In this document: piece by piece, positions 18,353-37,636 of the stretch
How positions within the stretch are numbered: the first letter of the stretch is position 1
Layout of the letters: each line of letters opens with the position of its first letter
Source: Thraustochytrium sp. TN22
Lineage: Eukaryota > Sar > Bigyra > Thraustochytrida > Thraustochytriidae
Direction of reading: 5' to 3'
NCBI GenBank assembly: GCA_013306675.1
Contig: JABLUY010000114.1
Coordinates: forward strand, 49,855-113,854
Length of the DNA stretch: 64,000 nucleotides
Notes under the pieces: generated by a model
Told to the model about the DNA's origin: nothing
The model's database searches: none
What the model saw: the letters and a program-made list of their open reading frames with translations, nothing else
Made by a program: the position numbers and the translations under genes

Positions 18353-18516
18353 CGCGCCGCTCGCCGCCGCCGCCGTGCGCGCCTCGCCCCCGGGCCGTTC
18401 GGCTTCTGCCGCGGGCTGCCGCGGGCCGCCCGCGCCGCGCGGCCGCGGCCTCGGGCTCGGCCGCGGCCGTGACGGCCTCGGCGGCGAGGAAGGAGGCGAT
18501 CCCTGGACGCGGGCTC

Positions 18517-18579
18517 GCCGCGGCGCGCGCAACGCGGGCCGCGGCGCGCGCAACGCGGGCCGCGGCGCGCGCAACGCGG
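18517..18579. repeat. 21-bp minisatellite, three copies
   Basis: Three perfect tandem copies of a 21-bp GC-only unit beginning GCCGCGGCGCGCGCAACGCG, in the roughly 425-bp divergent promoter between the unknown gene and TIM22. The period is a multiple of three, so it reads through as peptide repeats on both strands, which explains the long overlapping N-terminal ORF extensions. Confidence 0.93.
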
Positions 18580-18706
18580 CGCGGCGCGGCGCCAAGTGGA
18601 CCGAGGTGGACGAGGGCTGGCTGCGGCGCCGCGGCGGGGAGCGCCGCGCGGCGACGCAATTCAACTTCGAATTCGAATCGGAGGCGGCCGCGGGCGCGGG
18701 CGCAGC

Positions 18707-18711
<5 letters not shown>

Positions 18712-18752
<41 letters not shown>
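18712..18752. repeat. (GGC)n trinucleotide tract
   Basis: About 13 GGC units just 5' of the chosen TIM22 ATG (18778). In the longer ORF it would code for polyglycine, another reason to prefer the internal start. Confidence 0.85.
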
Positions 18753-18777
18753 GGCGAACGGGGCCGGCGAGGAGAGC

Positions 18778-19380
18778 ATGGCGGCGCTGGGCGGCATGCC
18801 GGGCGGCGTGCCGGGCGGCGTGCCGGGCGTGCCGGGGATGATGCAGCAGGGCGCGGCGGCGGCCGGCGCGAGCGCGGGCCTGCCCGCAGGCGCAGGGGAG
18901 GAGAGCGGGTTCTCCGCGGCGCTGGCGCAGCGCCTGGCGATGCAGAGCCAGGACCCGATGGTCTTTACGGAGGCATGCGTGGTGCGCGCCGTCGGCAGCG
19001 GCGTGGTGGGTGGCCTCATGGGCGCCGTCATGGGCATGGTGCTGGGTGGCTACGGCTCCATTGCGCCGCCCGTGTCCATGCCGGGCGTGCCCGACCCGCC
19101 CAAGGTGCCCATGAGGTGGCAGCTGCGCGACAGCTGGTACCAGACGGCGCGTCGTATGCGCCGCTGGGGCAAGAACTTCGGCTCCGTCACCATTGTCTTT
19201 TCTGGCGTGGAGTGCGTCATTGAAAAGTACCGCGCCAAGCACGACATGTTTAACGGCGTCTCTGCTGGCTGCGTCACGGGCGCCGCACTCGCTGCGAGCC
19301 AGGGCCCGGCTGCCATGTGCTTTGGTTGCGCCGGCTTTGCTGCCTTTAGCGCTGCCATCGAGTCGCTCATGGGTCACTAA
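18778..19380 (+). CDS. TIM22: TIM22, mitochondrial inner-membrane carrier translocase subunit
   Basis: 200 residues from the ATG at 18778. The N-terminal 45 residues are Gly/Pro/Ala-rich. A Tim17/22/23-family membrane core follows, with CVVRAVGSGVVGGLMGAVMG as first helix, a loop with a conserved basic stretch, GKNFGSVTIVFSGVECVIEK as second, then NGVSAGCVTGAALAASQGP and GCAGFAAFSAAIESLM. A Cys in the first helix and another late in the core are in the positions that form the TIM22 disulfide. The family inserts multi-spanning carrier proteins into the inner membrane. ORFs starting at 18469 or 18321 add only repeat-encoded sequence. It is divergent from the unknown gene ending its 5' side at 18352. 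Confidence 0.92.
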   Translation: MAALGGMPGGVPGGVPGVPGMMQQGAAAAGASAGLPAGAGEESGFSAALAQRLAMQSQDPMVFTEACVVRAVGSGVVGGLMGAVMGMVLGGYGSIAPPVSMPGVPDPPKVPMRWQLRDSWYQTARRMRRWGKNFGSVTIVFSGVECVIEKYRAKHDMFNGVSAGCVTGAALAASQGPAAMCFGCAGFAAFSAAIESLMGH

Positions 19381-19527
19381 GGAACTCCGGGCCTTTCACA
19401 AAGTAGGAGGCCTAGGCCTAGGCTAGAGGGCCTACCAGTAGCTTCGCTCTCTCTCTCTCTAGCTAGCTAGAGCTACTAGCCAGCCAGCCAGTTGGCTAGC
19501 TAGCTACTGCTTTTGCGAGCGAGCAGC

Positions 19528-20000
19528 TCTGGGACGGGCGGCTCCGTGTCAATATAGAGAATAAAAACAGCCCAGACCTCGCGTCCGATCCCGACAAGGT
19601 AAAGATGTTTGTAGTTTCTCGAATGAAGCAGACTGACTGCTTTATTCGCCAGTTTCTCGAATGAAGCAGACAGCTTCATTCGCCAGGTCACTTGAGAGAA
19701 GACTGCACAGCCGTCTGGGACAGGCGGCTCCGTGTCAAAATGGAGAATGAAACAGCCCAGAGCTCGCTTCTGATTCTCAGAAGGTTTTCAGCTTTTCGGC
19801 CTTGGGCGGGCGGCCCCATGTCAAGCAAAAAGAGAGAGGAGAAACACCCAAGGCACGACCCAAAGGTGGTAACAAAAGGTTTCACGAGATCTTTCTCGAG
19901 TGAATAGGAACAGCCCGGGCCTCCCTTCCCATCGCCCAAAAGGTAAAAGATGTTTGTGGTTTCTCGAATGGAACAGACAGATTCATCAGCCAAATCACTT
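19528..20000. repeat. Patch of diverged duplicated blocks downstream of SAS10
   Basis: Two sequence blocks each occur twice. Block X (CTGGGACRGGCGGCTCCGTG..., then GAGAAT and AAACAGCCCA) is at about 19528-19577 and 19715-19765. Block Y (AGGTAAA, ATGTTTGTRGTTTCTCGAAT, CAGAC, then ATTC and CACTT) is at about 19595-19696 and 19937-20000. Inside the first Y block, TTCTCGAATGAAGCAGAC is itself repeated 37 bp apart (19616 and 19653). The second Y block runs into the SAS10 stop codon (19995-19997). The DNA is much less GC-rich than its neighbours. No protein is apparent. Confidence 0.85.
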
Positions 20001-22178
20001 GGCGCCGGGACGGCGCGAAGCAACGAGGTTGGACCGCACACCGGAAGACTCGCCAGCGTAGTTGTCCGTCTCCCCGGTGCGCAGCTCGCGAACCTGGCCC
20101 TTGCGCGCCTTGAGCTTGCGCTCGTACAGCTTGCGCTTGCGAGTGCGCGGGTTGCGGTCCTCGGGCCGCTTGTGCGCGGTGAGGCCGCGGTTCTTGATAA
20201 TCTTGCGGCTCGCCAGGCGCTTCTGACCGTCCTCCAGCAGCCGCGAGGGCGCCGACGTGACGGCTTGCGGCTCGGCGGCGGCACGCGCGGCCGCGCGGTC
20301 CTCCTTGCGCTGGCGCTTCTGACGCCGGTCCTCCTCCTTGGCCGCCCGGTACAGGTCATCCTCCTCGGCGTCGTCCACAAAGTCCGGGTCGTAGTTGGCC
20401 TGGTTCTGCAGCTTCTTGAGGCTGCGCTTCTTCTCCTTGCGCAACTCCTCGGCGGCCGCAGCCTCCTCGTCCGCGGCAGACACAGCGCTGCGGTTCTGCG
20501 CCAGCATCATCGGGTCGCGGATCGCCAGGTCCTCGTCGCCAGAGCGCGACTTGGACGCCTTCTTGCGCTCCGTCTTCTCCTGCTGCTCGATGCGCTGCAT
20601 GAACTTGGCCAGCTCCTGCTCGCGCCGCGCCTTTTGGTCCACGCGGTACGAGGCGTCGCGGTCTACCTGGTTCACCCTGGCCTCCAGGTCGCCAAAGTCG
20701 TCCAGATCCGCCACGGTGCCCTCCATGTTGAAGGCCTCGCGCTCGCGCCGTTGGCGGGCCGCGCGCTGCTTCTTGGTCTCCTGGAGACGCACAAAGTAGT
20801 CCTCCTCGTAGCGCGTGCGCTCTTCCTCCTCCTCGCGGCTCTTGAGGTCGGCCATGTTTGCGCCGATGGAGGGCTCCTCCATTGGCCTGTCCAAGAGCTC
20901 GCTCGCCATCTCCTGCAGCATCCTATTCTTCTTGAGCTTGTTCTGCAGCCGCCTACGCCGCTTGTCGTCGCGGGCCGCGTCGCGCTCCTCGTCCTCGAAG
21001 CTCGTCGGCGCGAACATGTGCTTGGGCACCACATAGCGCTTCCCGTTCGCGCGCGCGCGCCCTCCGTTCGCCTCCGCCTTGGCCTCCTCCTCGTCGTCGT
21101 CCTCGTCCTCAGCCTCCTCGTCCTCCTCGTCGCCGTCCTCATCGTCATCGTCGTCCATGAGGTCCGCGATGTTCGGCCGCGCAGCCGCCTTCTTGCTGCC
21201 ATTGGCGCGGGCCGCCGGCTTGGCGGCCAGCATCTCGTCGAGCTGGCCCTTGAGCTTGATGTCGAGCGGCTTGAGCTTCTCCAGCACCGTGCGCATGCGC
21301 ACAAGCTGGCGGATAACCGGGTGATCGCGCACGGACTCCGACTTGGCCTTGAGGTACAGGTAGTATGCCACGTTGATGCAATACGTGAGCATCGCCACGT
21401 ACTTTGCCTCCAGGTAGCTGACGCCGTTCTCCGTCGGCAGCTCGCCGCCCACCACCTTGTCCATGATGGGCACGACGTGCTTCTCAAGCGTCGCCAGGTT
21501 CGCCTTGAACTCCGAGAGCAGGCCAATCAGCTCAGGGGCCTGCGCCGCGACACGCTCCAGCTTCTCGTTCGTGCCCGCCTTGCCCTTGCCCTTCTTGGCG
21601 GTCTTCTTGGCGGACGCGCGCTTCAGGAGCAGCTCGCTCTGCTTCACGTCCTCGTCGTCCGAGTCCACGTCCAGTTCGTAGTCCTGGTCCTTGAGCCCGG
21701 CCGTCAGCTGGCGCTTCATGTCCAACGCCTCCTGCTCCTCCTCCTCGGCGTCCGCGGCGGCCTCCTCGTCCTCCGACTCCTCCTCATCGTCTTCGCTCCC
21801 GCTCGACTCGCCCTCCTTGAAGAAGTCGCTGCGCCGCTTGCCCCAGCGCTTGGTGGCGTCCGCCTTGGCCTTGCGCGCCGCAGCCCTCGCGTCCTCCTCG
21901 TCCTCCTCCTCCTCGTCCTCCTCCTCGTCCTCCTCCCTCACGTTCACATCCAGCACGCCCTCGGCGTCCAGGTCGCTGTCCTCCTCGTCCTCGGCGCTGT
22001 CCTCGGCCTCGGCGCCCAGCCGCTTCGCGTGGAAGGCCTCCACCTCATCGTCCGAGATGACGTCCTCCTGCGCGCCGCCGCGCCGCGCGCCGCGCCGCTG
22101 GCCCCGCCCGCGCGCCATCCTGCCGCGCCCCGCCGCGCGCGCGCTCCTCCGGTTCTGCCCTGGCTGCCGCGGGGCCAC
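19995..22178 (-). CDS. UTP3: SAS10/UTP3, small-subunit processome protein
   Basis: 727 residues, intronless. It is very rich in Asp/Glu and Lys/Arg blocks, as SAS10/UTP3/C1D proteins are. The Sas10/Utp3 core is at about residues 205-300 (ELIGLLSEFKANLATLEKHV, then IMDKVV and YLEAKYVAMLTYCINVAYYL). The diagnostic C-terminal domain is at about 640-727, containing KIIKNRGLTAHKR, RNPRTRKRKLYERKLKARKG, the GQVRE turn and a final SRRPGAK. The protein acts in the nucleolus in U3 snoRNP-dependent 18S rRNA processing. An ATG 20 codons downstream (22118) is a possible alternative start. It is divergent from the HSD17B10-like gene, with about 515 bp between the starts. A long antisense ORF across it is spurious. 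Confidence 0.93.
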   Translation of the reverse strand: MAPRQPGQNRRSARAAGRGRMARGRGQRRGARRGGAQEDVISDDEVEAFHAKRLGAEAEDSAEDEEDSDLDAEGVLDVNVREEDEEEDEEEEDEEDARAAARKAKADATKRWGKRRSDFFKEGESSGSEDDEEESEDEEAAADAEEEEQEALDMKRQLTAGLKDQDYELDVDSDDEDVKQSELLLKRASAKKTAKKGKGKAGTNEKLERVAAQAPELIGLLSEFKANLATLEKHVVPIMDKVVGGELPTENGVSYLEAKYVAMLTYCINVAYYLYLKAKSESVRDHPVIRQLVRMRTVLEKLKPLDIKLKGQLDEMLAAKPAARANGSKKAAARPNIADLMDDDDDEDGDEEDEEAEDEDDDEEEAKAEANGGRARANGKRYVVPKHMFAPTSFEDEERDAARDDKRRRRLQNKLKKNRMLQEMASELLDRPMEEPSIGANMADLKSREEEEERTRYEEDYFVRLQETKKQRAARQRREREAFNMEGTVADLDDFGDLEARVNQVDRDASYRVDQKARREQELAKFMQRIEQQEKTERKKASKSRSGDEDLAIRDPMMLAQNRSAVSAADEEAAAAEELRKEKKRSLKKLQNQANYDPDFVDDAEEDDLYRAAKEEDRRQKRQRKEDRAAARAAAEPQAVTSAPSRLLEDGQKRLASRKIIKNRGLTAHKRPEDRNPRTRKRKLYERKLKARKGQVRELRTGETDNYAGESSGVRSNLVASRRPGAK

Positions 22179-23662: not shown

Positions 23663-25102
23663 TCACTTCGCGCACGCAGGCCACTTGCGAAAGCTGGCGA
23701 AAAGGCCGACCAAAGGTCCCGGCGCGAGAATAAGCATCGCCATGCCTGGGTCCACGCCCGCGTCCAGCACTGCGCCCAGCACCTCAATGCCCACAATCGT
23801 GACGGCAAACCCGCAGCATGTAGTCAGCGTCAGGGCGGTGCCAACAAGGTCGCGCGGCGCATTCTGTGCCAGCAGCGCAGAAAACTGCGGCGAGTCCGCG
23901 ATGACCGCCAAACCCCACCAGAGCACGAAGACGAGAAAGCCAGCTGGCGTCATGCGACCGTACAGCGGCGCCAGCAGGCAGCACACCATGGATGCAAGCA
24001 GCGCAGCGTTGGCCACCGTGGCACTTCCGACGCGCAGGCTCCATAGCCCACCCAGCGCGCAGGAGAACGCGCCGACGCCGATCGCGGCAAAGGTGCTCAG
24101 CTCCACCGAGAGTACCGCTGCGCCGCCGTGCGCGTCCGCGTGCGCCTCGATCAGCACTGGAACAAAGGCCCACCACGCGTAGAGCTCCCACATGTGGCCA
24201 AAGTAGCCCAGCGCAGCGGCGCGAAATTCTGTGGAGCTCACGATCTCGCGGATGGGCCCCACGCCCATCTGCAGGCCGCGTCCCGGGGACGAGGCCGGCC
24301 GCAACCGCAAGAGCGCCACCACCGCTGGTCCCAGCTCGTCCCACGGTACAAGCACCACCGGCAGGAGCAAGCCGCCGACCAGGGCGAGCCCCGAGACCGC
24401 CAATAGCGTCGCCTCAAGCGGTAAGCTGCGGCCGGCGCCGCGCAGGAGCCATGGAAAGGCCGTGCCGAGCGTCAACGCGCCTACAAGCACGCCCAAACGC
24501 GCGCCCAGGCCCTCCGGGAAGTGCTTGGCCGCCACGCGCATGCCAACCGGGTACACGCCGGCCAAGCAAAACCCGACGAGCGTGCGCAGTACCGCCCATG
24601 TCGCAAAGTCGGTGCGCGCCACGCAGAGCGCGTTGAAGAAGCTGCCCAGCGCCGCCATGGCGGCAAAGACCACCTCTGGCACGAAACGGTCCGCCACGCC
24701 CAGCAGTGAGAGCACCAGCGTGCCCGCGATGAAGCCCGCCTGCACGAGCGACGTCAGCGTCGAGACGTGCTCCGCCAGCTCGCTGCCCTTCGCCTGTCCG
24801 GCCACCGCATTGGGAGCAAACCACAGCGACGTCCCTGCAAATTGTGCGAATACGATCGTCGCCAGCGCGTACGGGCTGTGCCGTGGAGTCTGGTCTTCCG
24901 TTGCCGACCTCGTTGTGGCTGCCGGCGTCGCCGGGCACTGGGCGGTCCCTGGCATGACCCGGTTCGCCGGCGGCATCGCTTTACCCGGTTGCTGCTCGGG
25001 CACCACCGTGGCGCCGTCGCCACCAGCTTCCAGCATGATGCTCGCGTTCTGGGTAAGAGGCGTGCTGCGCTCCTGCCGCTGCGCCGTGCCCAACCGCGCC
25101 AA
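23663..25102 (-). CDS. Major facilitator superfamily transporter
   Basis: 479 residues. A polar, Thr/Pro-rich N-terminal region of about 80 residues is followed by about twelve hydrophobic segments in two halves with a central cytoplasmic loop near the PASSPGRG stretch, the MFS plan. The first helix carries FAGTSLWFAPNAV, a motif I associate with bacterial MFS permeases of uncertain substrate; after TM2-3 an MFS-A-like turn (GVADRFVPE) is visible. Substrate cannot be predicted. It is 279 bp downstream of the first FAAL-type synthetase on the same strand, so it may export that pathway's product (inference). ATGs at residues 23 and 43 are alternative starts. Confidence 0.87.
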   Translation of the reverse strand: MARLGTAQRQERSTPLTQNASIMLEAGGDGATVVPEQQPGKAMPPANRVMPGTAQCPATPAATTRSATEDQTPRHSPYALATIVFAQFAGTSLWFAPNAVAGQAKGSELAEHVSTLTSLVQAGFIAGTLVLSLLGVADRFVPEVVFAAMAALGSFFNALCVARTDFATWAVLRTLVGFCLAGVYPVGMRVAAKHFPEGLGARLGVLVGALTLGTAFPWLLRGAGRSLPLEATLLAVSGLALVGGLLLPVVLVPWDELGPAVVALLRLRPASSPGRGLQMGVGPIREIVSSTEFRAAALGYFGHMWELYAWWAFVPVLIEAHADAHGGAAVLSVELSTFAAIGVGAFSCALGGLWSLRVGSATVANAALLASMVCCLLAPLYGRMTPAGFLVFVLWWGLAVIADSPQFSALLAQNAPRDLVGTALTLTTCCGFAVTIVGIEVLGAVLDAGVDPGMAMLILAPGPLVGLFASFRKWPACAK

Positions 25103-25381
25103 CGCGCTCTGCCGCGCGCCATGGGCTCCTGTGTTGCGGCGCGGTCTTCGCGGAAACAGGTTTTGTGCGAGTCGCTGCTCCCTCCATGGGCATCCGCACG
25201 GCGCTGTCTGATGACACGCGCAACATGTTCTCGGACGAATTCAAGTTGCGCCTCCAGGACACGCACTCGCATGGCCGCTGTGCCAGGCAAGCATTCTTAC
25301 AACGCACCCATCGCCACGGTGGCAGACAGCTAATTTTGCTTGCTTTTTTTACCGAGAAACGTACAAGAGTTATCTTGTACG

Positions 25382-28300
25382 TCAGCACGCTGGCGCTACC
25401 TCAACCGTGCTGCCGGCTTGCTCAAGATCAAGGGTGAGCTTCTTTGGGTCCGTGTGGCTTGAGACTTGCTGCACTGTGGCTCGCGGGTGGATCACGGTCT
25501 CGGGCGGAACGAAGCCATTACTCATGCAGATTGCTCCCTGGTGCAGCACGGCGCGGGCACCGATGTACGACGGGCCGAGCTGGAAGCCGCCGTTGGTGAA
25601 CTGGTGCGCACCCAGGTAGGCCCCGGCGTCCACAATCGCGCCTTCGCCTACTGTCAACAGCTGGTGCTCCCGCACTAGCATCGTGTTGATAATCGCATCG
25701 CGGCCCACCCGTGCGCCTTGGAAACGCGCATGCATGTTGTACATGGGCGTCGCGTGGAGCACGAACAGCAGCAGCTTCTCAAAGCGGCACGTGAAGAGCT
25801 GGTACGAGCAGTACAGGCTCGTGCGCGTCGGGACAGCTTGCAAATCTCGCCACGGCCCCAGCACAGCAAGAGCCTGGAGACGCTGGGCGAGAATAGAGCA
25901 GAGCAGAACCAACCAAAAGCTCACGGGGAGCAGCATGATGGCAAGGTTGCGGTCCACGTCTGCGTGAAAGAGCACGAACTGCGCAAACTCAAAGGCTGGG
26001 ACGAGGGTCGCGACCATCAATGCAAGCAGCCCCGCCCGGAAAACGAGCGCCAAGGCCTCCTCTGCCGCGCTCCACACCGGCACAACCTCGTCTCCCCTGC
26101 TCTTGCTGGCCATCGGAAAACTTGCGCCCCGGAACTTGCGGGTGTTCGCCGGTAGAACCTCGCGCTCCGCTAGCGTGCTCAGCGCCGCCAGGCTCGAATG
26201 AGGCTGCATCATGCTGCCAGGACCCAACACCGCGAAGAGACCCACCTCGCAATGATCGCCAATGTGAACCTCGGCCCGCTCCCCATGAGCCTCCGTCTCC
26301 ACGAAGATGAGCCCCATCATTGCGTTCTTGCCCACGTGAATCATGTCCGCGTTCGTGGCGCTGATGCAGTCAGACGAAGATGCAAAGGCGCACGGGCCCA
26401 CCGAGGCGCCCAGCATGCGCCAGTACGCCATCAGCACGCGCGACTCGTCCAAGAAGATGATCCACGTGCCAATCATCAGGCCCCACATGTAGTCTGCCGC
26501 CCAGTGCCGCAGCACACGCAGCGCGCTGGGCGTCACCGGCCCGGCCCGAAGGCGGCCCACCAGGACCCACTTGAAACCAACCACCACGAAGGACATGCAA
26601 CAGGCCGTCACCACGAATGACGTGCTCCAGTACACGAGGTCCGCGTAGCGAAAGCCCGAGGGGTATCCGCAGGCGTCCCAGATGAGCACGTTGACCAGTG
26701 AGACGCCAAAGTAGACCTCCAGAACGAAGCACATGATGAGGAGCTTCGCCACGAGGTCCACCAGCACGGTCGGGGTCGAGCGCCCCGCACTCGCGGGCTC
26801 CAGAGGCGCCACCTCCACGCCCTCCTGCACAACCTCGAGAATGCCCACGCGCGCGCCACAGCCTACCGACGCGCCCGGCATCACCACCGATCCGGCTCCC
26901 AGGTCACTGAAGGCGCCAATCTGCACGGGCCGGAAGCGAAGCGTGCGCGCCTTGGCGTCGAAAGTGCGACACACGACTGTGGCCTTGACATTGGCGTCGC
27001 GGCCAATGTGTACAAGGTCCACGTCGCGCAGTAGCGTCTTGATCTTGGCTGAAAACGCGATGCGACCACCCAGCAGCATGTAGAACACATTGAGCAGCGG
27101 CGTGTTGACGAGCCAGCGGCCCACGGCAGACTCCCACGTGTGCACAAGGCGGTCCACGAGCCACCACCGCAGGTACGGAAGCGAGTTGATCGCGATCTCC
27201 CGCGGTGTCCAGCGGCCGACCACGAGCCACTTGGTGGCCACTACGAGCGTTGAGAAGCTGATGAGCCACAGCGGAATGACCAAGGGCACCAGCAGGCCGA
27301 ACATGGTCACCGTGTCCGTGACGCGGTAGTAGACCCAGGGCTCGCCCAGGTCGCTCTGGAAGCGCACCCAGTATCCGAAGTGGTAAGCAGGCAGGATGGC
27401 GGCGGACATCTCGAGAAAGATAAGTGAGACGCCGAAGCACTGCAGCAGCCCGGCGAGGCCTGTATGCATCGAGCACCCCCCAGTTCGCGGCAGCTCTTCA
27501 AGGTGACGGACCGTCTTGGCTCTCTTGGCGGCCTCGATTGCCTCGAAAATGCCGCGCACGGTGCGATGCTCGGCGATGAAGTCCGCCTCAAGGGCTGTTG
27601 TACCTTCGAGGAGCGCCTCCGCATGCGCGTTGACCTCGACCATTGCGAGCGAGCTCATGCCCGCTTCAAAAAGGTCAGCGTCCGCGCTGAGCGAGGAAAC
27701 CTCGAGCGTCTCACGAACGCGATGAAGTAGCCACGCGAGGCGCTCTTCCGGCGTGCTGGCCGCGTGAGCGGTGGTGGTTCCGTAGCCCAGGTCAGTCCAC
27801 GTCAGCGAAAAGAGGTCCTGATGCACGCGCATACCGCTCTCGAGCGGTGTAGTGAGGACGCGGTCGCAGCGAGCGACGACAGAAGTCGCCGTGGCACTTC
27901 TTTCCTCCGGGAGGTAGCGGCGAATCAGGTCCTTGGTGATGTCGCCGGTCTTGGCAACACAAAGCCGAGGTGTGATGCGCTCGAGTGCGGGGCCCGTGAC
28001 AAGCGGTGGCTGGGTCGCGGCGGGTCCTGCGAACACGTGGAGTTGATCAGCGCCTCCGATGAGAAGCAGCGTGGCGATGCGGTCACGCATGAAGGTCTGG
28101 TCGGAGGATGGCTTGATGATTTCTGGCAAGAAGAGGACAGCCTGGAAGGCGCGGTCGGTGAGGACGTCCTGGTGTGGCCGAAGTCTCTCGAGGAAGGAGA
28201 AGTGCCACGCCACGTAGGCCTGAGCGAAGAGCGCAAGGGGCACTTCGCGCGTGGCGCGATCCAGCGAGACCTGGCTGAGCGCAGATCCGAGCACTGCGGA

Positions 28301-30655
28301 CGGCGGAGGATCCAAAGGCGCCTCTGGGTTCGTGTCGAGGAGCTCGGCGGCCACTGCAGCGAGGATGTCGAGACCAAGGCCGCGCAGATCTTGCACCGCG
28401 CGCGCACCTTGTGCGGCAATGTTCTGCAGCTCGATGCGTGCGGCCCAGACCAGCAGGCCACGATTCACGGTGTTGAACCAGGTCTTTTGGTCCCTGCCCT
28501 GGTGGTTCCGCACATTCCGTTGCAGCACATGCGGCATGACAGCAGCATAAACGGTGGGGTCTCTCACGTGCTTGGCGAAGGCGCTCACGAGGAGAATCAA
28601 GCTGAGCGGCCCGCGCAGGTCGCCGGCTGAGAATGCGCGAGTTGCCTTGGGCAGCAGGCTCGCCAGAAAGGCCGCGAGTGTCGTCTGCACCTCCAGGGCG
28701 CTTCGCAAGCTCGTTAGCAGCGGCATCAAGCTGACGGGCTCTCTCGCGTAGCCCGCGTCGCGCAGGAGCTCGAGGCCGGGCGTGTCGTCCATGTGCATCT
28801 CGTCCATGAGGCGGCCCATCTGCGCTGGGTCCGTGTGAAGGTCCATCGCCATGGCCGAATCGAAGAGCGCCCACAACGGCCCAAGGTCGACCGAGGGCAG
28901 AGCTGGGTTGGGCGGAGCCGGGCCTTGACGGCCCGGGTCCGCATCGCCGCTCTGCGCGACGACGGCGAGCTGATCGTTGAGAAAGGCATCGCGCGCGGCG
29001 CTCCTGCGGATCTTCCCACTGGTCGTCTTGGGCACGGTCCGCGGTCGGATGAGCACGACGGCAAGCGGCGAGAAACCGTGATCACCTGCCACGGCACCTC
29101 GAATCGTGTCTGCGAGCTTCACGGCGTCCTTCATCCTGGCATCGCGCACCTCGGCCACCACGACAACGTCCTCGGAATGGTTGAGGCTGAAAGCAGCGCA
29201 GCACCCGGGCCGAATGTGCTCGCTGCAGGCTTCGACGCTGGCCTCCACGTCCTGTGGGAAGATGTTGCGTCCGCGCACGATGAGCATGTCCTTGATGCGC
29301 CCGCAGACGAAAATTTCACCCTGATGCACGAAGCCCATGTCGCCGGTGCGCAAGTACGTGCGCCCGTCGGGATCGGCGAGTTCCGCGTTGAGTTGACTCG
29401 CGGACAGTCGTGGCCGATCAAGGTAGGTGCCGACTTTCGAGGCGCCTGTGACCCAAAGCTCGCCCAGATGGTCCTCAGGAAGGGGCGCAAGGGTCTCTGG
29501 ATGAACAATCTGCACAGTTGTCCCAGGCGCCGGTGCCCCGCAGCCGACAAGAACCGCGCCTCGCTCATCCGGCTGCGCCAGCTGAATCATCGAACCGGCG
29601 GTCTGATCGTAGTCTTCGAGGAGTCGGACGAGAACGTGCGGGTGCGTGGGCACGTATGCGGAGACCAGCAGGACGTTTTCGGCGATGCCAAAGACAGGAA
29701 TCAAGAACTCCGGGCGGACGCCCTGGTCCCTGAAGGTATCCACGAAAGATTGCAGGGTCTTGGCACGTACGGGCTCAGCGCCGTTGAGCCAGCGTGTGCA
29801 GCAGCCAAGGTCCAGGCCGGCGCGCACCTCAGGCGGCGTCTTGCGCGCGACGAGGTCAAACGCGAAGTTTGGCGCGCAGGTAATCTCCACGCGGTACTGA
29901 GAGATGGCTTCCAGCCAGAGCCATGGCCTGCGCAAAAAGGACATCGGCGACGCGAGTACGGCGAAGCCGCCCAAGCTGATGCTGCTGAGGATGGAGCCGA
30001 TGAGTCCCATGTCGTGGTAGAAGGGCACCCAGGTGAATCCGACGGTGGCCTCTGTCGATCCGTTCGCCAGGCGGATGCTTTGCAGGTTGGCGTTCAAGTT
30101 TGCGTACGTGACGCAAATGCCCTTGGGGTCGCCCGTGCTGCCGCTGGAGAACTGCACAAAGACGAGATCCTCGGGCGAGGGCGTCCGGGGCATGTCGACG
30201 CGGGGCGCAGGCTTGGCCTTGCGCACGTCGTGCCAGGCGAGACCTTGAGGGAATCTGCTTGGACCAATGATGAGCCGCCTGGCGCGCAGAAAGGCTGCAT
30301 GCGACAGCACCGTCGTGAGCTGCGTCGTCTCGATGACTTTAATCAGCTTGGCGAGCCCAGGCTTGGCGTTGTTCGGGTCCGGCGGGTAGATCGGCACGGC
30401 CACGAAGCCGCCTAGCAGGCAGGCAAGCATGGCCTTGACGAAGTCAAGCCCGGGGAAGAAGACGAGCAAAACCATGTCCCCGCGCTTCACGCCCCAGGAG
30501 CGCTCCATGTGGCGCGCGAGCCCGAGCGCGCCAGCGACGAGCTCACGTCGCGTCAGCGTCGCCGCCTCCTTGCCTGCATCGTCCAGCCAAGTAAACAACC
30601 TGCGCTCGGGCTGCTCCTTTGCGAGCCGCACGCAGCTTTCGCAAATTGTTTCCAT
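25382..30655 (-). CDS. FAAL-type adenylation / acyl-carrier / Pls-PosA-like membrane synthetase, copy 1
   Basis: 1757 residues from the ATG at 30655, chosen because the paralogue starts at the same point; an ATG at 30691 is also possible. The adenylation domain (about 1-565) looks like fatty acyl-AMP ligases: LLVFFPGLDFVKAMLACLLG with AVPIYPPDP, A3 motif QFSSGSTGDPKG at about 168-179, LIVRGRNIFPQDVE, and A10 PKTTSGKIRR at about 545. Then comes a helical region of about 370 residues absent from the paralogue. A carrier domain has DLFEAGMSSLAMVEV, with Ser1002 the likely phosphopantetheine site. The C-terminal half has several membrane spans and hexapeptide-type beta-helix repeats, matching the NRPS terminal (Pls/PosA) module known mainly from bacteria. 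No condensation or thioesterase domain is visible. The likely reaction is fatty acid activation and transfer at a membrane; product unknown. Confidence 0.88.
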   Translation of the reverse strand: METICESCVRLAKEQPERRLFTWLDDAGKEAATLTRRELVAGALGLARHMERSWGVKRGDMVLLVFFPGLDFVKAMLACLLGGFVAVPIYPPDPNNAKPGLAKLIKVIETTQLTTVLSHAAFLRARRLIIGPSRFPQGLAWHDVRKAKPAPRVDMPRTPSPEDLVFVQFSSGSTGDPKGICVTYANLNANLQSIRLANGSTEATVGFTWVPFYHDMGLIGSILSSISLGGFAVLASPMSFLRRPWLWLEAISQYRVEITCAPNFAFDLVARKTPPEVRAGLDLGCCTRWLNGAEPVRAKTLQSFVDTFRDQGVRPEFLIPVFGIAENVLLVSAYVPTHPHVLVRLLEDYDQTAGSMIQLAQPDERGAVLVGCGAPAPGTTVQIVHPETLAPLPEDHLGELWVTGASKVGTYLDRPRLSASQLNAELADPDGRTYLRTGDMGFVHQGEIFVCGRIKDMLIVRGRNIFPQDVEASVEACSEHIRPGCCAAFSLNHSEDVVVVAEVRDARMKDAVKLADTIRGAVAGDHGFSPLAVVLIRPRTVPKTTSGKIRRSAARDAFLNDQLAVVAQSGDADPGRQGPAPPNPALPSVDLGPLWALFDSAMAMDLHTDPAQMGRLMDEMHMDDTPGLELLRDAGYAREPVSLMPLLTSLRSALEVQTTLAAFLASLLPKATRAFSAGDLRGPLSLILLVSAFAKHVRDPTVYAAVMPHVLQRNVRNHQGRDQKTWFNTVNRGLLVWAARIELQNIAAQGARAVQDLRGLGLDILAAVAAELLDTNPEAPLDPPPSAVLGSALSQVSLDRATREVPLALFAQAYVAWHFSFLERLRPHQDVLTDRAFQAVLFLPEIIKPSSDQTFMRDRIATLLLIGGADQLHVFAGPAATQPPLVTGPALERITPRLCVAKTGDITKDLIRRYLPEERSATATSVVARCDRVLTTPLESGMRVHQDLFSLTWTDLGYGTTTAHAASTPEERLAWLLHRVRETLEVSSLSADADLFEAGMSSLAMVEVNAHAEALLEGTTALEADFIAEHRTVRGIFEAIEAAKRAKTVRHLEELPRTGGCSMHTGLAGLLQCFGVSLIFLEMSAAILPAYHFGYWVRFQSDLGEPWVYYRVTDTVTMFGLLVPLVIPLWLISFSTLVVATKWLVVGRWTPREIAINSLPYLRWWLVDRLVHTWESAVGRWLVNTPLLNVFYMLLGGRIAFSAKIKTLLRDVDLVHIGRDANVKATVVCRTFDAKARTLRFRPVQIGAFSDLGAGSVVMPGASVGCGARVGILEVVQEGVEVAPLEPASAGRSTPTVLVDLVAKLLIMCFVLEVYFGVSLVNVLIWDACGYPSGFRYADLVYWSTSFVVTACCMSFVVVGFKWVLVGRLRAGPVTPSALRVLRHWAADYMWGLMIGTWIIFLDESRVLMAYWRMLGASVGPCAFASSSDCISATNADMIHVGKNAMMGLIFVETEAHGERAEVHIGDHCEVGLFAVLGPGSMMQPHSSLAALSTLAEREVLPANTRKFRGASFPMASKSRGDEVVPVWSAAEEALALVFRAGLLALMVATLVPAFEFAQFVLFHADVDRNLAIMLLPVSFWLVLLCSILAQRLQALAVLGPWRDLQAVPTRTSLYCSYQLFTCRFEKLLLFVLHATPMYNMHARFQGARVGRDAIINTMLVREHQLLTVGEGAIVDAGAYLGAHQFTNGGFQLGPSYIGARAVLHQGAICMSNGFVPPETVIHPRATVQQVSSHTDPKKLTLDLEQAGSTVEVAPAC

Positions 30656-31570
30656 CTCGTTGCTTTTCGCCGGAGAGAGGGTCCTCTGCATGCGCCAAGC
30701 TCGAAGCGCGTTTGCCGCTGCCGGTCCCGCGCGCCTGCGCGTCCGCTCTGCGTGCCATGTGTAATTTCTAATGAATCGGATGCGACGCGCTAGCCGTCTG
30801 TGTCCACTGTCACGCGTCCAAGTTCGGGTCGGTCGCAGCGTCGGCCACCCGCTCGCGGCTCGCTGGCACATCCCCCGGGTCACCCGCACACCGGCCTTCG
30901 CTCGCTCGCTGCTGAGGGCGGCGGAAGTACGATGGCGAGCCGTCGCCATCAACGCGCTGCCACATGCGTGGAAGGCGAACCCAGGAGGCGCCTGGCCAGG
31001 CCTATTGACAGTGAAGCCGACGGCAGCTCTGCGAACCTGTGTTCCTCTGCATTCACTGTGCAGCCCGAGTCGAGCTGAGGCGCGACCGGGAGAAATGAGC
31101 GGCGGAGCCAGTGGCGGCAGCTACGCTGGTCACCCGCACGCCCCGCGCTGGAATTCGCGGCGTTTGCAGAAATTAGCAGAAATTACGTCGGCCACCTGAC
31201 CGTGACGGGCTTCCGCGCTAAACCCCCCCCCTGGTGAGGGTCCTCAGGCTGACGCCGCTGGCCCGCGCTGGAGCTTGAGGCATGTCTTCATGATGTGACC
31301 GGTGGCCAAGTGATGCGGCGGCGCTGCGACACGCCACGATGCGACGACAGGGCCCAGCATGGCGTGGCATAGTCTTGTGGCCGATCGGAGCTCGAGCCGC
31401 GGCCTTCGCGACCATGAAAGTAGAGGCAGAACTCTACTGCCGGGCACGAGTTCCGCCGGAGACGGCTCGAGAGGACTAGGGTGTCGCAGTGCAGAGCAGA
31501 GCAGAGCAGTGCACGTAATTTGGTGCGGTGCTGTCAGGTCTCGCCCAGGCAAACTAGCCAACTCAGGAAA
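30656..31570. other. Divergent promoter between synthetase copy 1 and the desaturase
   Basis: A 915-bp region from which the two genes are transcribed in opposite directions, so co-regulation is possible. It includes a run of eight C at about 31222-31231 and a short CAGAG/GCAGA repeat at about 31491-31509, just 5' of the desaturase. No coding frame stands out. Confidence 0.55.
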
Positions 31571-32935
31571 ATGGGCCAAGGCGCACAACTTGGGCCTCAC
31601 GCTGCCTGGGCAAAGACGGGCGAAGTGGTGCCAGCGACGAGGGCGCAGGATGGCAAGGGGGCGCCCCGCTCCTGGATCCTCCTGGACGGATTGGAGTATG
31701 ACGTGACAGACTTCATCGCACGCCACCCAGGCGGCAGCGTCATCAAGTACGCGCTCGCGAACGATGGATCCGACGCCACTTTCGCATTCAACGCCTTCCA
31801 CTCGCGCAGCGCTCGCGCGCGTACCGTCCTTCGCTCGCTGCCCAGGCGCGAGCCGCAACTCGAGGTGCAGCCGGGCCAGTCTGCGGCAGAGGACTCCAAA
31901 GAGGGCGAGCTCAATCGCGCCTTCGTGGACTTTGAGCGCGAGCTGCGCGCGGAGGGCTTCTTCGAGCCGAGTGCACTGCATGTTATCTGGCGACTCTCGG
32001 AGCTCGCCATCATATTCGCGCTAGGCCTGCTTGCCTTCTCGCACGGCTGTATCGTAGCAGGCGTCTGCTTGCACGGCCTCTTTGGCGGTCGATGCGTCTG
32101 GGTGCAGCACGAGGCCGCTCACGGCTCGCTTGTGCGATCCATCTGGCTTGGGCGCCGCATCGACAGTTTCTTACTGGCGATCGCCATGGCACGTTCCGCG
32201 CACCTGTGGGGCGGCAATCACAACAAGCACCATGCCGCCACGCAGCGCTTTACTCACGACCTGGACATTGACACCGCACCGTTCATCGCCTTCTCCAAGA
32301 CAGCTGTCGAGCACTCGCGCTTCCAGATCCGCATGCCAGCCCTGTGGGCACGTCTGCAAGCCTTCACGTTCTTGCCGCTCACCAGTGGCGTCCTCGCGCT
32401 CCTGTTCCATACGCTCGTCATGCACCCATACCACGTCATCTGCAACGCGCGTTGGGAAGACGGCTCACTCATGCTGCTCTCCCATGTCGTGCGCACGTTC
32501 AGCGTGCAGTACGTGACGGGCTGGTCACTCGCCGAAGCATATTTCATCGGTTTCTGGGCGGCCATTTGGGTGACCAACGTGTACATCTATGGACACTTCG
32601 CGCTGTCCCACTCGCACACGGAAGTGATGGAGGCAGATGTCCGCAAGTCCTGGCTCCGTAACATGGTGGAGCACACGGTGGACATCGACCCTGGCTTCTG
32701 GCCAGTGGACTGGTTCATGGGCTACCTGAACTGCCAGGTTATCCACCATCTGTGGCCGCAGATGCCGCAGTTCAGACAGCCGGAGGTCGCGCGGCGGTTC
32801 GCAGTATTCTGCAAGCAGCACGGCGTCCCATACAAGACCATGTCCTACGTGGAGGTGTGGACTGTGACGCTCAAGAACCTGCACGAGGTCGGGCGTCACT
32901 ACTCTGATCTGAACGCGTCCAAGAAGAATGTCTAA
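31571..32935 (+). CDS. Front-end fatty acid desaturase with N-terminal cytochrome b5 domain
   Basis: 454 residues from the ATG at 31571, in a good context and just before the cytochrome b5 fold; an upstream in-frame ATG at 31481 adds 30 residues. The b5 heme motif HPGG is at 52-55 with the second heme His in FHSRS near 77. The three His boxes are HEAAH (180-184), HNKHH (217-221) and QVIHH (389-393), where Gln replacing the first His of box 3 is the hallmark of front-end (delta-4/5/6/8) desaturases. These ER enzymes insert double bases between an existing double bond and the carboxyl end during long-chain PUFA synthesis. Regioselectivity cannot be read; box 3 (QVIHH, not QIEHH) is unusual. It lies between two FAAL-type genes, in convergent orientation to copy 2. 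Confidence 0.95.
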   Translation: MGQGAQLGPHAAWAKTGEVVPATRAQDGKGAPRSWILLDGLEYDVTDFIARHPGGSVIKYALANDGSDATFAFNAFHSRSARARTVLRSLPRREPQLEVQPGQSAAEDSKEGELNRAFVDFERELRAEGFFEPSALHVIWRLSELAIIFALGLLAFSHGCIVAGVCLHGLFGGRCVWVQHEAAHGSLVRSIWLGRRIDSFLLAIAMARSAHLWGGNHNKHHAATQRFTHDLDIDTAPFIAFSKTAVEHSRFQIRMPALWARLQAFTFLPLTSGVLALLFHTLVMHPYHVICNARWEDGSLMLLSHVVRTFSVQYVTGWSLAEAYFIGFWAAIWVTNVYIYGHFALSHSHTEVMEADVRKSWLRNMVEHTVDIDPGFWPVDWFMGYLNCQVIHHLWPQMPQFRQPEVARRFAVFCKQHGVPYKTMSYVEVWTVTLKNLHEVGRHYSDLNASKKNV

Positions 32936-33427
32936 CTTTAGAAGAAGCTGATACCCTCAGACTTGGTGCATCCCTATCCTCTGGCACCGGCGCAATTCCT
33001 TGCGAGAAGCGTCGATTACACGATTGGGCCAGGCCCCACGAGGCGGGCACAAGGACGTGGTCACGCAGCAGGCAAGCAAGCAGGACCACGAGAATATCGC
33101 AATGAGATCAACTCCCTGGCACGCAGATGACGATCAGAGTCACCGGCAATTTGAAGGACTTGCGCGTGCGTGCGTTCTTGCTTGCTTGCGCTACAAGGCT
33201 AATTCTGATATCGCATCGCATGTGCGTCTCGGCCTACGGTCGAACGCATCAGGAGCCGCAACAGCCCGCGCCGGATGACTTTTGCTTGTACCTTTTTCAA
33301 CGTAGCCAGGAACGCTTCGCCCGCTCTCTCTCACGTGTAAAGCAGGCAAGCGCGATGCTCATTCCTCACAAGAGCGACGACGCTCAGCGCAAGCCGATGT
33401 TCCAATGCTTTGATTTGACGTCAACAT
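32936..33427. other. Convergent intergenic region
   Basis: Carries the 3' ends of the desaturase (+) and synthetase copy 2 (-). It includes a TTGCTTGCTTGCG-type tetramer run near 33178-33190. No gene seen. Confidence 0.5.
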
Positions 33428-36400
33428 CTATACCTGAGCGAGCTCGTCGCCGAGGTCAGCGTCTTGAGGCGCAATATCTCGCTTGGTCAGCGCGCTCTCA
33501 TCATCGTCGACGCACTCTTTGGGCGCCGCCTGTGGGGCGCATGCACGTGGAGCGATGGTGGTGCGGGCCGCAACACGTCCATTGCAAAGACAGATAGATC
33601 CAGGCTGGAGCAGAGCTTGCGCCCCGAGGCGCGAAGGGCCGAGCTCAAAGGCCCAATTGGTGAACTGGTGTGCCGAAAAGAAGGCGCCAATGTCCACAAT
33701 CGCGCCCTCGTCCACCGTCAGCAACTGGTGCTCGCGGAGTCGGCTCGAGTTGAGAACTGCGCGTGGGCCCACGCGAGCCCCCATGAACCGCGCATGCATG
33801 TTGTACATTGGGGTCGCGTGCAGAACTGGAAGGAGAAGGTCTTCGAAGAGGCCCGTGAAGTTTTGATACATGCAGTAGAGGCTGCCCCGGGTTGGCACCG
33901 CGTACAGCGTCCGCGAAGGGCCGAGGACGCCAAGCGCGACGAGGCGCTGAGGAACCATCGCCAGACCGAGCATCGCGAGCCACAAGCTAACGGCCAGCAA
34001 CACAATTGCTGCATCACGCTGCATCCCGGCCTCAAACAGCACGAAGGAGGCAAACTCGAAGGCTGGGATCAGCGAAACCACCGCGAGCACCACGACAGCG
34101 CCTCGCAGGACGAGCGCCAAGATCTCCTCGGAGAGACCCCAGAGCCAACGCACTTCTGTATCCTTCGAAGCCAACGCAAAGGAAGCGCCGTGAAACTTCC
34201 GATGGCCAGAGGGCAGGACTTGATGTTTCTCGAGCTCGCTGAGCAAGGCCAGGCTGGAGCGCGGCTGGAGCTCGCTCCCAAAGCCGAGGGCTGCGCAGAC
34301 CCCCACCTCGGACTGAGGACCAATCCTCGCTCGGGCGAGCTGGCCATCTGCCTCGGTCTCCACGAAGATGAGGCTGGCCATTGACTCGTTGCCCATGCTA
34401 ATGAGGTCTGCGTTGGAAGGCGCCACCCAGGTCACGCTCGAAGTAAAGGTGTCGCGCCCAATCGAGGCGCCAATGGCACGCAGGTACCACAACACGACGC
34501 GTGTCTCCTCGAGCCAGGTGAGCCAGGTTGCGTACACCAGGCTGAAGAGGTAGTCGGCGAGCCAGTGGCGGAGGTCGCGCCACGCACTTGGAGATACTGG
34601 ACCCGGCCGCAGGCGTCCCACGAGCGTCCACTTGAGGGCGACCGCCACGAGAGACATGACGAAGCCCGTCACGAAGAAGGACGAGGCCCAGAAAGCGAGT
34701 TCTGTGTAGCGAAAATTCGTCGGGAAGCCGCAGACGTCCCACATGAGCAGGTTGACCACGCTTGCCGCAAAGTAGACCTGCAGAATGATGCTCATGAGAA
34801 AGAGCTTGGCAACTAGATCTGCAAACGTTTTGCCTGCGCTTGTGTAGCAGGATGTGGCGGGCGCAAGACCATCCGACTTGTCGACGGGCCCTTGCACGAT
34901 TTCACCTTCCTTGGCCACGCGCAAGGTCTCTAGCTGCGCAAGCTCGTGAAGCGAGGCGCCCAACATGACCATGGCGCTTGCGCGCACGTGGCTGCCGGCG
35001 CCGAGACTCGCATGTCGGAAGCGGAGCGTCCGTTCTCTCGCGTCAAAGGCGCGGCAGATAATGCTGCCCTTCACGATGGCGTCCTGGCCGATGGAGACGA
35101 GATCGAGGTCTCGCAGCAGAGTCTTGAGCTTGGCGCTGAGGGCGACCTTGCCTCCCATGAGGACGTAGAACACGTTTAGAAGTGGCGTGTCGAGGAGCCA
35201 GCGCCCCACCGTAGTCTCCCACATGTGCATGAGTCGGTCGACGAGCCACCAGCGCAGGTACGGAAGAGAGTTGATGTTCACCTCGCAAGGCGCCAGGCGC
35301 CAAAGGACGAGCCATTTGGTTACGATGACGAGCATCGAGAAGCTTATCATCCAAACGGGGATGGTAAATGGCACCAGTACGCCCATCATGATGACTGTAT
35401 CCGTGACACGGTAGTAGACCCAGGGCTCTCCCAGGTCGCTCTCAAAGCGCACCCAATAGCCGAAGTGGTAGGCCGGGATGACGGCGGCGGTCATCTGGAA
35501 AAAGATGAGCCAGACGCCAAAGAATTGGACGAGGCCTGCAATCCACGTCGGTAGTTCTCTGCCGGACCTGCGTGAAAGTGTGTCAAGCGAGGGTTTTTTG
35601 CCGAGTTGGGCCTCGACGGCCTCTGACATGCGACGCACAGTACGATACGACGCAACAAAGTCCGGTCCGAGCTCGCCTTCGGCGCCACCAAAGAGCGCCT
35701 CGGCATGCGTGGCCACCTCTACCATGGCAAGCGAGCTCATGCCAGCCTCGAAGAGGTCATCATTCGCGCCGAGTGTGGCCGTGTCAAGGCTCTGACGCGT
35801 CTTGGCGAGCAGCCATTGCAGCCGTGACTCAGGATCGTTCGCGACGTGGCCCAGCTCATCGAAGTCGTCCGACTCCACCGAGGCGACGCTGCTGGTCCCG
35901 CTGGCGCCCAGACCACCCCACTGGGCCACAACTGCGAGCATCCCTCTCGTGAAGGCTTCGCGCGTCTCGCGGCGGCGAATCTTGCCGCTCGTGGTCTTGG
36001 GGATTGAGCGCGGCTTGATGAGCACGACCGCGAGCGGCGAGAAGCCATGATCGCGCGCCACCGCGCCGCGCACCGCGTCAGCGAGCTGCAAGCCGTCTTT
36101 GATCGAGGCGTCCCGCACCTCGGCGACCACCACAACATCCTCAGAGTGCTCCAGGCAAAAGCTGGCGCAGCAACCGGGCCTGATGGCGGGGCTGCAGGCG
36201 TCAACGCTTTCCTCGATGTCTTGCGGGAAGATGTTGCGCCCGCGCACGATGAGCATGTCCTTGAGGCGACCGCACACGAAGACTTCATTCTCGTGCAAAA
36301 AGCCCATGTCGCCCGTGCGGAGATAGACAAGGCCGTCCGGCTCGGCAAGCTGTGCGTTGAGCTGATCCGCAGAGAGGTCCGGTCGGCCCATGTAGGCGCG

Positions 36401-37636
36401 CACTTTGGACAGACCTGCCACCCACAGCTCGCCGACGTGACCCGGCGGAAGCGCCACGCGCGTGTCGGGATGGACCACGCGCACAACAGTGCCCGGCGCC
36501 GGTATGCCATTGCCCACGAGCGTTTGGCCTGCGTCGTCGTCGCCCTCGACAGTTTCGATCGCGGTGCCCGCCTTGCGCGTGTACGAGGCCGGCAGCCGGA
36601 TGGAGATGGGCGCTGCCAGAGGCGCTCGCTGTTGCGTGACGAGCAGCACGTTCTCCGCGATGCCGTAGAGCGGAAGGATGGCGCCCAAGCGCATGCCCTG
36701 GTCTTTGAAGGTCTCAGCAAATGCTTTGAGCGTCTGCATGCGGATCGGCTCGGCGCCGTTGAGCCAGCGAGTGCAGCTGCTGAGGTCTAGCTTGGCCCGC
36801 ACCTCTGGAGGAGTCTTGCGTGCCGCCAACTCGTAGGCGAAGTTGGGTGCCGTCGTATGGACTGCGCGGTAGTCCGAGATGGCCTGCAGCCAGAGGGAGG
36901 GCCGGCGCAGAAAGCTCACCGGCGACATCAAAACGGAGAGGCCTCCGCTGTACATGGTGCTGAGGATGCATCCGATGAGACCCATGTCGTGGTAAAAGGG
37001 GACCCACGCGACGCCCACGGTCGCCTCCGTCCAGGCCAGGGACACGCGGATACTCTCCAGATTTGCATTCAGGTTTCCGTGCGTGACGCATACACCCTTG
37101 GGGTCGCCCGTGCTGCCGCTCGAGAACTGCACAAAAGCCAGGTCGTCGGCCTCTGGCGACGCGGAAGGGACGATTGCCTTTGCCGGCTTGGCCTTGCACA
37201 CGTCGAACCAGCGGAGGCCGGCCGGGAATTTGCTCGCCCCAATGACGAGGCGCCTGACACGCAGAAAGCTGGCGTGGGAGACCACGTGGGTCAGCTGCGT
37301 GAGCTCAACAGCCTTGGCGAGCTTGGCGAGCCCCGGCTTGGCATTGTTCGGGTCGGGCGGGTACACGGGCACGGCGACGAAGCCGCCCAGCAGGCATGCG
37401 AGCATGGCGACAACAAAGTCGAGCCCGGGGAAGAAGACGAGCAGCACCTTGTCACCGCGCCGCACACCCCACGCCTGCTCCATGGCGCGCGCGGCACCGA
37501 GCGCCTTGGCGATAAGCGCGCGGCGAGTCAGCGCAGCGGTCTCCTTGCCTTGGTCATTTAACCACACGAACAGCTTGCGATCGGGTTGATCTGCTGCCAG
37601 GCGCACAACATTCGCGCAAAGACTCGCGCCCTGCAT
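33428..37636 (-). CDS. FAAL-type adenylation / acyl-carrier / Pls-PosA-like membrane synthetase, copy 2
   Basis: 1402 residues from the ATG at 37636 (an in-frame ATG at 37777 would add 47 unconserved residues). It is closely related to copy 1 over its whole length apart from one block. FAAL-like adenylation domain with GDKVLLVFFPGLDFVVAML, PPDP, A3 motif QFSSGSTGDPKG at about 170-181, LIVRGRNIFPQDIE and A10 PKTTSGKIRR near 550. The carrier domain follows after only about 60 residues, with DLFEAGMSSLAMVEV and Ser635 as probable pantetheine site. The C-terminal Pls/PosA-like part has paired multi-TM segments (AYHFGYWVRFESDLGEPW, then WWLVDRLMHMWE) and two hexapeptide beta-helix stretches. It is a tandem duplicate of copy 1, with the desaturase gene inserted between or retained. 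Confidence 0.88.
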   Translation of the reverse strand: MQGASLCANVVRLAADQPDRKLFVWLNDQGKETAALTRRALIAKALGAARAMEQAWGVRRGDKVLLVFFPGLDFVVAMLACLLGGFVAVPVYPPDPNNAKPGLAKLAKAVELTQLTHVVSHASFLRVRRLVIGASKFPAGLRWFDVCKAKPAKAIVPSASPEADDLAFVQFSSGSTGDPKGVCVTHGNLNANLESIRVSLAWTEATVGVAWVPFYHDMGLIGCILSTMYSGGLSVLMSPVSFLRRPSLWLQAISDYRAVHTTAPNFAYELAARKTPPEVRAKLDLSSCTRWLNGAEPIRMQTLKAFAETFKDQGMRLGAILPLYGIAENVLLVTQQRAPLAAPISIRLPASYTRKAGTAIETVEGDDDAGQTLVGNGIPAPGTVVRVVHPDTRVALPPGHVGELWVAGLSKVRAYMGRPDLSADQLNAQLAEPDGLVYLRTGDMGFLHENEVFVCGRLKDMLIVRGRNIFPQDIEESVDACSPAIRPGCCASFCLEHSEDVVVVAEVRDASIKDGLQLADAVRGAVARDHGFSPLAVVLIKPRSIPKTTSGKIRRRETREAFTRGMLAVVAQWGGLGASGTSSVASVESDDFDELGHVANDPESRLQWLLAKTRQSLDTATLGANDDLFEAGMSSLAMVEVATHAEALFGGAEGELGPDFVASYRTVRRMSEAVEAQLGKKPSLDTLSRRSGRELPTWIAGLVQFFGVWLIFFQMTAAVIPAYHFGYWVRFESDLGEPWVYYRVTDTVIMMGVLVPFTIPVWMISFSMLVIVTKWLVLWRLAPCEVNINSLPYLRWWLVDRLMHMWETTVGRWLLDTPLLNVFYVLMGGKVALSAKLKTLLRDLDLVSIGQDAIVKGSIICRAFDARERTLRFRHASLGAGSHVRASAMVMLGASLHELAQLETLRVAKEGEIVQGPVDKSDGLAPATSCYTSAGKTFADLVAKLFLMSIILQVYFAASVVNLLMWDVCGFPTNFRYTELAFWASSFFVTGFVMSLVAVALKWTLVGRLRPGPVSPSAWRDLRHWLADYLFSLVYATWLTWLEETRVVLWYLRAIGASIGRDTFTSSVTWVAPSNADLISMGNESMASLIFVETEADGQLARARIGPQSEVGVCAALGFGSELQPRSSLALLSELEKHQVLPSGHRKFHGASFALASKDTEVRWLWGLSEEILALVLRGAVVVLAVVSLIPAFEFASFVLFEAGMQRDAAIVLLAVSLWLAMLGLAMVPQRLVALGVLGPSRTLYAVPTRGSLYCMYQNFTGLFEDLLLPVLHATPMYNMHARFMGARVGPRAVLNSSRLREHQLLTVDEGAIVDIGAFFSAHQFTNWAFELGPSRLGAQALLQPGSICLCNGRVAARTTIAPRACAPQAAPKECVDDDESALTKRDIAPQDADLGDELAQV

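Follow-up and report, generated by a model that had tools for sequence, protein, structure and literature searches.

A 64,000-nucleotide stretch of the genome of Thraustochytrium sp. TN22 (GenBank assembly GCA_013306675.1, contig JABLUY010000114.1, positions 49,855 to 113,854; here called the window, with positions counted from its first letter) carries two genes, P1 (25382-30655, minus strand, 1757 aa) and P2 (33428-37636, minus strand, 1402 aa), whose products combine a fatty acyl-AMP ligase (FAAL) domain, an acyl carrier protein (ACP) domain and a C-terminal membrane region resembling that of Pls and PosA, the synthetases of epsilon-poly-L-lysine and delta-poly-L-ornithine. Our reading, to which we give a probability of about 0.6, is that P1 and P2 belong to a large family of eukaryotic synthetases that are anchored in a membrane and couple acyl chains, and that the desaturase and MFS transporter genes beside them are neighbours for which we see no functional link. 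What is new is a FAAL version of the Pls architecture, expanded in this lineage, with a new insert domain (INS) and recombining modules. A membrane architecture familiar from synthetases of amino-acid polymers seems here to have been turned to fatty acids, in at least 19 copies in one protist akin to the oil-rich thraustochytrids, and one would expect from it acyl conjugates or polymers of a class not yet on record.

The presence of a FAAL and an ACP domain in both proteins, as claimed in the original prediction, is borne out by Pfam, by TIGR models and by matches to solved structures. In Pfam the AMP-binding match has an E-value of 1.5e-49 for P1 and 1.8e-54 for P2, and each protein also has the DIP2-like AMP C-domain and a PP-binding match (22.7 bits for P1 and 22.1 for P2, with a cut-off of 20.8). 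The P2 FAAL domain covers aa 14-570 (35927-37597, minus strand) and has solved FAALs as its top matches. The ACP domains are at aa 617-674 of P2 (35615-35788, minus strand), with S635 as the phosphopantetheine serine, and at aa 975-1038 of P1 (27542-27733, minus strand); the PP-binding fold with its modifiable serine is present. FAAL profile models rank high for P1 and P2, yet every one is under its cut-off. The alignments to 3kxw and 7r7f cross, with small gaps, what we take to be the FAAL-specific insertion region. The nearest characterised relatives are FAALs and not acyl-CoA ligases: 12 sequences of solved structures match at E<=1e-50, with 7r7e/f/g, 3kxw, FadD23, FadD32 and 3pbk leading or included. 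Three of the 12 were deposited under the name "Acyl-CoA synthase", and one of these deposits is identical in sequence to 5ey8, which is named FadD32 in PMC11837247.

Eukaryotes are known to have FAAL-like domains in DIP2, which acts in diacylglycerol homeostasis (PMC9342972, PMC8460268), and P1 and P2 could on that pattern be regulatory or lipid-sequestering proteins that form no product. We find this very improbable, as DIP2 consists of a DMAP1-binding domain and two FAAL-like domains (PMC8460268), whereas in the Pfam scan AMP-binding was matched once and DMAP1-binding not at all. Furthermore the family FAALs keep the P-loop and A8 motifs and align with bacterial FAALs at 33-39% identity (30 best plasmid rows), and the ACP is present.

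The Pls-like region of P2 (aa 700-1370; 33527-35539, minus strand) matches TIGR02353 with 133 bits over aa 738-1364, and is strongly hydrophobic over aa 701-721, 750-774, 941-964, 987-1004, 1174-1197 and 1207-1234. That of P1 (25460-27478, minus strand, start approximate), placed by TIGR02353 and by similarity to P2, matches with 162 bits split in three stretches, and P1 and P2 are 57% identical across the ACP-Pls part. The AlphaFold model of the P2 region has a pLDDT of 80.3 and a pTM of 0.81. Hydropathy, this model and its fold matches, which mostly cover model residues 6-85 and 415-567, point to a C-terminal plan of three repeats of a transmembrane (TM) pair plus a left-handed beta-helix (LbH). 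Pls-type membrane proteins are absent from the fold-match rows, but that absence is uninformative. The same plan has been described for Pls and PosA, in which six TM helices form three pairs accompanied by LbH repeats (PMC10522769), and these synthetases are also alike in having an adenylating domain, a carrier and a C-terminus of about 700 residues. H1323 of P2 (33668-33670, minus strand), which is in the third LbH repeat, is the only His invariant across both the 16 family rows and the 13 bacterial Pls rows, and an RWW motif and other positions are also invariant in both sets. Where the family is unlike Pls is in having a FAAL in place of the amino-acid adenylation domain (A-domain), and in the INS domain of 11 family members.

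With regard to function, the family relationships suggest that the FAAL domain activates a free fatty acid as its adenylate and that the acyl group would then go onto the phosphopantetheine arm of the ACP within the same chain, for which the serine is present. By analogy, it is most likely that the ACP-bound chain is passed to an amine or alcohol at the membrane, and one pseudo-threefold C-terminal unit would carry out this transfer to a membrane acceptor. LpxA and LpxD have the LbH fold, as does the predicted P2 C-terminus. They also use an acyl-ACP donor and a catalytic His, and on their model H1323 could be the general base (PMC6820557), although a fold match alone is no proof of function. 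LpxA and LpxD differ in using an external ACP and in being homotrimers (the trimer being stated for LpxD in PMC6820557), whereas in P1 and P2 the ACP is fused and a single chain holds the three repeats as well as the TM pairs. The possibility raised in the original prediction, that an acyl chain is activated and then coupled to another group at a membrane, is thus supported as an inferred function by the FAAL, the ACP, the Pls-like C-terminus, its fold and its His. However the acceptor step, which had been thought to require new chemistry or enzymes in trans, need not be in trans, as a transferase may plausibly be seen in the C-terminal LbH unit and its invariant His. That single conserved His makes the catalytic question testable for the entire Pls family.

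The C-terminal plan and the invariant His are also those of homopolymer synthetases (PMC10522769), and by analogy with Pls the proteins might polymerise hydroxy-fatty acids to polyesters or estolides at the membrane. We regard this as unlikely, since there is no evidence for a hydroxy-acyl substrate and a single transfer is simpler.

P1 and P2 were originally seen as two paralogous copies of one arrangement. This needs two corrections: the genome has at least 19 loci of the kind, and P1 has an insert that P2 lacks. The P2 search and the TIGR02353 search of the assembly (37.9 Mb over 453 contigs) gave at least 19 loci with FAAL and Pls-like parts, spread over 14 contigs, and the number is a lower bound, as 33 of 52 candidates from the P2 search were scored. 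There are three copies on C74, two each on C16, C401 and C99, and single copies on C55, C453, C421, C11, C152, C114, C359, C446, C399 and C116. If two partial loci are added, C451 (a FAAL piece) and C147, there are 21 loci over 16 contigs; two remoter FAAL relatives, on C224 (44%) and C97 (42%), are outside the count. The C147 locus (17127-20345) is a 1259-aa frame with FAAL, INS and ACP, with no Pls part matched. Every Pls-like locus that we found, 19 in all, has a FAAL fused to it. These loci hold 50 of the 52 TIGR02353 matches in the genome, the other two being weak (<23 bits) and in short frames, and thus no amino-acid-type Pls was seen in the genome. Phylogenetically P2 has two C74 copies as its sisters (100/100), and P1 groups with the C114, C421, C11 and C359 copies without strong support (83/90); P1 and P2 are not sister copies.

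The INS domain of P1 (27775-28948 with its edges, minus strand) is about 370 aa long and located between FAAL and ACP. A genome search with it gave 13 matches, every one within the family; they belong to 11 members (C147 and 10 of the 19 loci), of which two, C114 and C359, have it in tandem duplicate. There was no Pfam match in any of five members examined and no credible solved-structure match (one chance-level PDB match, E 0.38). None of 398 Pseudomonadota genomes gave a match, but without a positive control that empty result is uninformative. The distribution of INS (10 of 19 rows) on the C-terminal tree requires at least four changes.

The loading and membrane parts have, on sequence comparison, different histories, with sharp breakpoints between them. 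One case is the pair C74:45754-49887 and C74:50475-54623, for which identity in 150-base windows is 55-81% over the FAAL and most of the ACP region, while from the first TM segment onward there are 13 differences in 1870 alignment columns; divergence returns in the last 200 or so columns. In a tree of nine FAALs that of C74:45754-49887 groups with those of C116 and C399 (100/100), and joining the two C74 FAALs as a group is rejected (p 1.2e-49), whereas for the C-termini, in which the two C74 copies are sisters (100/100), it is the converse grouping that is rejected (p 6e-16). The groups tested were named after the pattern was noticed. Similarly C11 and C359 are 58-75% identical through INS and 91-100% from the ACP onward, whereas a control pair, C11 and C421, is 88-99% identical along its full length. 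These pairs were picked for near-identity, and not randomly. Exchange of the loading part, or gene conversion of the membrane part, could be behind the pattern, both being possible, and we have here a natural case of recombination between loading and membrane modules. As the copies differ in the FAAL-ACP part and in INS, the products of the family are probably several related acyl conjugates. We suggest, more tentatively, a combinatorial lipid-coupling or polyester system, in which FAAL-ACP cassettes are recombined onto a Pls-derived transferase with zero, one or two INS domains as a specificity element. If that were true, about 20 acyl conjugates or polymers of an undescribed class would be made in one protist.

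There are several points that weigh against our overall reading. The TIGR02353 scores of 162 and 133 bits are far under the curated cut-off of 423.1, though far above noise, and in the whole genome there were no matches over that cut-off. Identity to bacterial Pls is about 23%. Among the five AlphaFold models two came out much weaker (68.6 and 60.0), and the best PDB match is to the second LbH repeat, whereas H1323 is in the third. In all 13 bacterial rows another His that is constant through the family, H1303, is replaced by Phe or Tyr, so that the family and bacterial sites differ. Motif patterns missed some FAALs (YxxAE and RTGD each found in 8 of 9, and PKTxSGKI..R in 6 of 9), and the ACP pattern matched 6 of 9; the misses are in part due to narrow patterns, as P1 has FGIAE and PKTTSGKIRRS. 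Lastly, and against our view that the four window genes are not a pathway cluster, an 828-aa frame with AMP-binding similarity (C99:174487-175584) is about 1.4 kb from the first C99 family member. The description of the C-terminus as Pls/PosA-like holds for its plan, fold and invariant His, but with the reservation that the TIGR02353 score is under the cut-off.

The statement that the arrangement is known mainly from bacterial NRPS-type enzymes needs correction. The 13 bacterial Pls proteins compared are all over the TIGR02353 cut-off, and 11 of them match the amino-acid adenylation model TIGR01733, the other two (L065 and L072) stopping short of the A-domain; the bacterial relatives therefore have amino-acid A-domains where these are covered. 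Bacterial loading modules such as 7r7f and 3kxw are like P1 and P2 in having FAAL then ACP, but in plasmids, the source of the 30 FAAL rows mentioned above, none of 1344 matching records covers 80% of P2. In a sample of genome contigs 10 stretches fit a pattern and three encode a relative. Of 398 Pseudomonadota genomes 13 gave a match at 1e-12, with at most two candidates scored per genome, and 10 loci were used. Of 392 Planctomycetota genomes, with two candidates scored in each, 76 contain a FAAL match at 1e-30; among the matches listed none goes past model position 690 of 1395 or reaches the Pls part. Both phylum names are inferred. Seven planctomycete genomes (G605, G733, G521, G781, G727, G739 and G753) have FAAL-ACP frames of 1122-1150 aa, of which the last 450 or so aa are unmatched by the query. 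Viral contigs gave two weak partial A-domain matches. The FAAL-Pls fusion was thus not found in the plasmids, Pseudomonadota and Planctomycetota sampled, but the chromosomes of Cyanobacteria, Myxococcota and Actinomycetota were not sampled as groups, and with such large phyla outside the samples we make no claim of absence from bacteria. Eukaryotic Pls-type proteins have been published from fungi, Amoebozoa, Metazoa and Alveolata (PMC10522769), and FAALs from stramenopiles (PMC11837247). We did not find the combination of the two in the open-access papers searched, where terms for both together brought up only the PosA paper, in which no FAAL term occurs, although supplementary antiSMASH and FAAL architecture tables, which were outside the search, may list the fusion.

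The original prediction also took P1, P2, the desaturase and the transporter as one biosynthetic cluster. All four reading frames exist and are open at the coordinates first proposed. The MFS gene (23663-25036, minus strand, 457 aa; Pfam MFS_1 7e-13) is 3' of P1 on the same strand. The desaturase gene (31571-32935, plus strand) is between P1 and P2, and is divergent from P1 over 915 bp (30656-31570), given a P1 start at 30655; there are alternative in-frame ATGs for P1 at 30691, 30871 and 30949. A front-end desaturase has a Cyt b5 domain plus a desaturase domain with Gln in the third His box. The sequence fits that type, with Pfam matches to Cyt-b5 and FA_desaturase, HPGG within Cyt b5 and His boxes HEAAH, HNKHH and QVIHH, motifs that we take as the front-end signature.

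It is possible to see in this a pathway in which the desaturase makes a chain, P1 and P2 couple it and the MFS protein exports the product, and the adjacency of the four genes and the divergent arrangement are in its favour, as is the fairly low random-placement probability for one nearby desaturase, at 0.05 with 2.5-kb flanks (0.11 with 10-kb flanks). However we now think a cluster improbable, and no longer the better reading, as the family is dispersed over at least 19 copies, P1 and P2 are not sisters, and only one of 11 desaturase loci (merged from 13 matches) is near a family member. A desaturase paralogue (69%) is flanked by a WH1/PBD gene and a kinesin gene and has no FAAL neighbour. 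The MFS protein search found only the protein itself, and on an assumed 100 MFS genes (103 candidates were seen and nine scored) one is expected 0.5-1.1 times near one or other of the family loci. There is thus no repeated association with a partner gene within the genome. Three other copies have as neighbours an aminotransferase (C453), a myosin (C116) and two Pfam-unmatched open reading frames (C401). A search for shared promoter sequence gave short blastn matches alone (best E 0.005 over 26 bases), and genes for Sas10/Utp3 and ARMC9 are among those flanking the four. The desaturase and MFS genes appear to be neighbours of P1 and P2 by adjacency, without sign of a common pathway.

GC content across the window, in 2-kb steps, is 0.58-0.74. 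Genes for myosin, kinesin and Sas10/Utp3 show the DNA to be eukaryotic. Other window genes with Pfam matches are for P450, IQ-motif, ADK/NDK, SDR, thioredoxin-like, TPP enzyme, WRKY19-type zinc finger, DnaJ/PH and dual-specificity phosphatase proteins. One of them, at 12049-16656, encodes a 1535-aa protein in which adenylate kinase and NDK are joined by a weak match to Dpy-30. Elsewhere in the genome C332 codes for a nonribosomal peptide synthetase (NRPS), in an open frame of 4522 aa that has A-PCP, condensation and NAD_binding_4 reductase domains, and C410 for a large polyketide synthase, in an open frame of 5691 aa where KS and KR are matched and ACP five times. A frame of 3044 aa on C124 matches ACP ten times, nine of them with identical score, and then has KR and dehydratase domains; it is presumably akin to a thraustochytrid polyunsaturated fatty acid synthase subunit.

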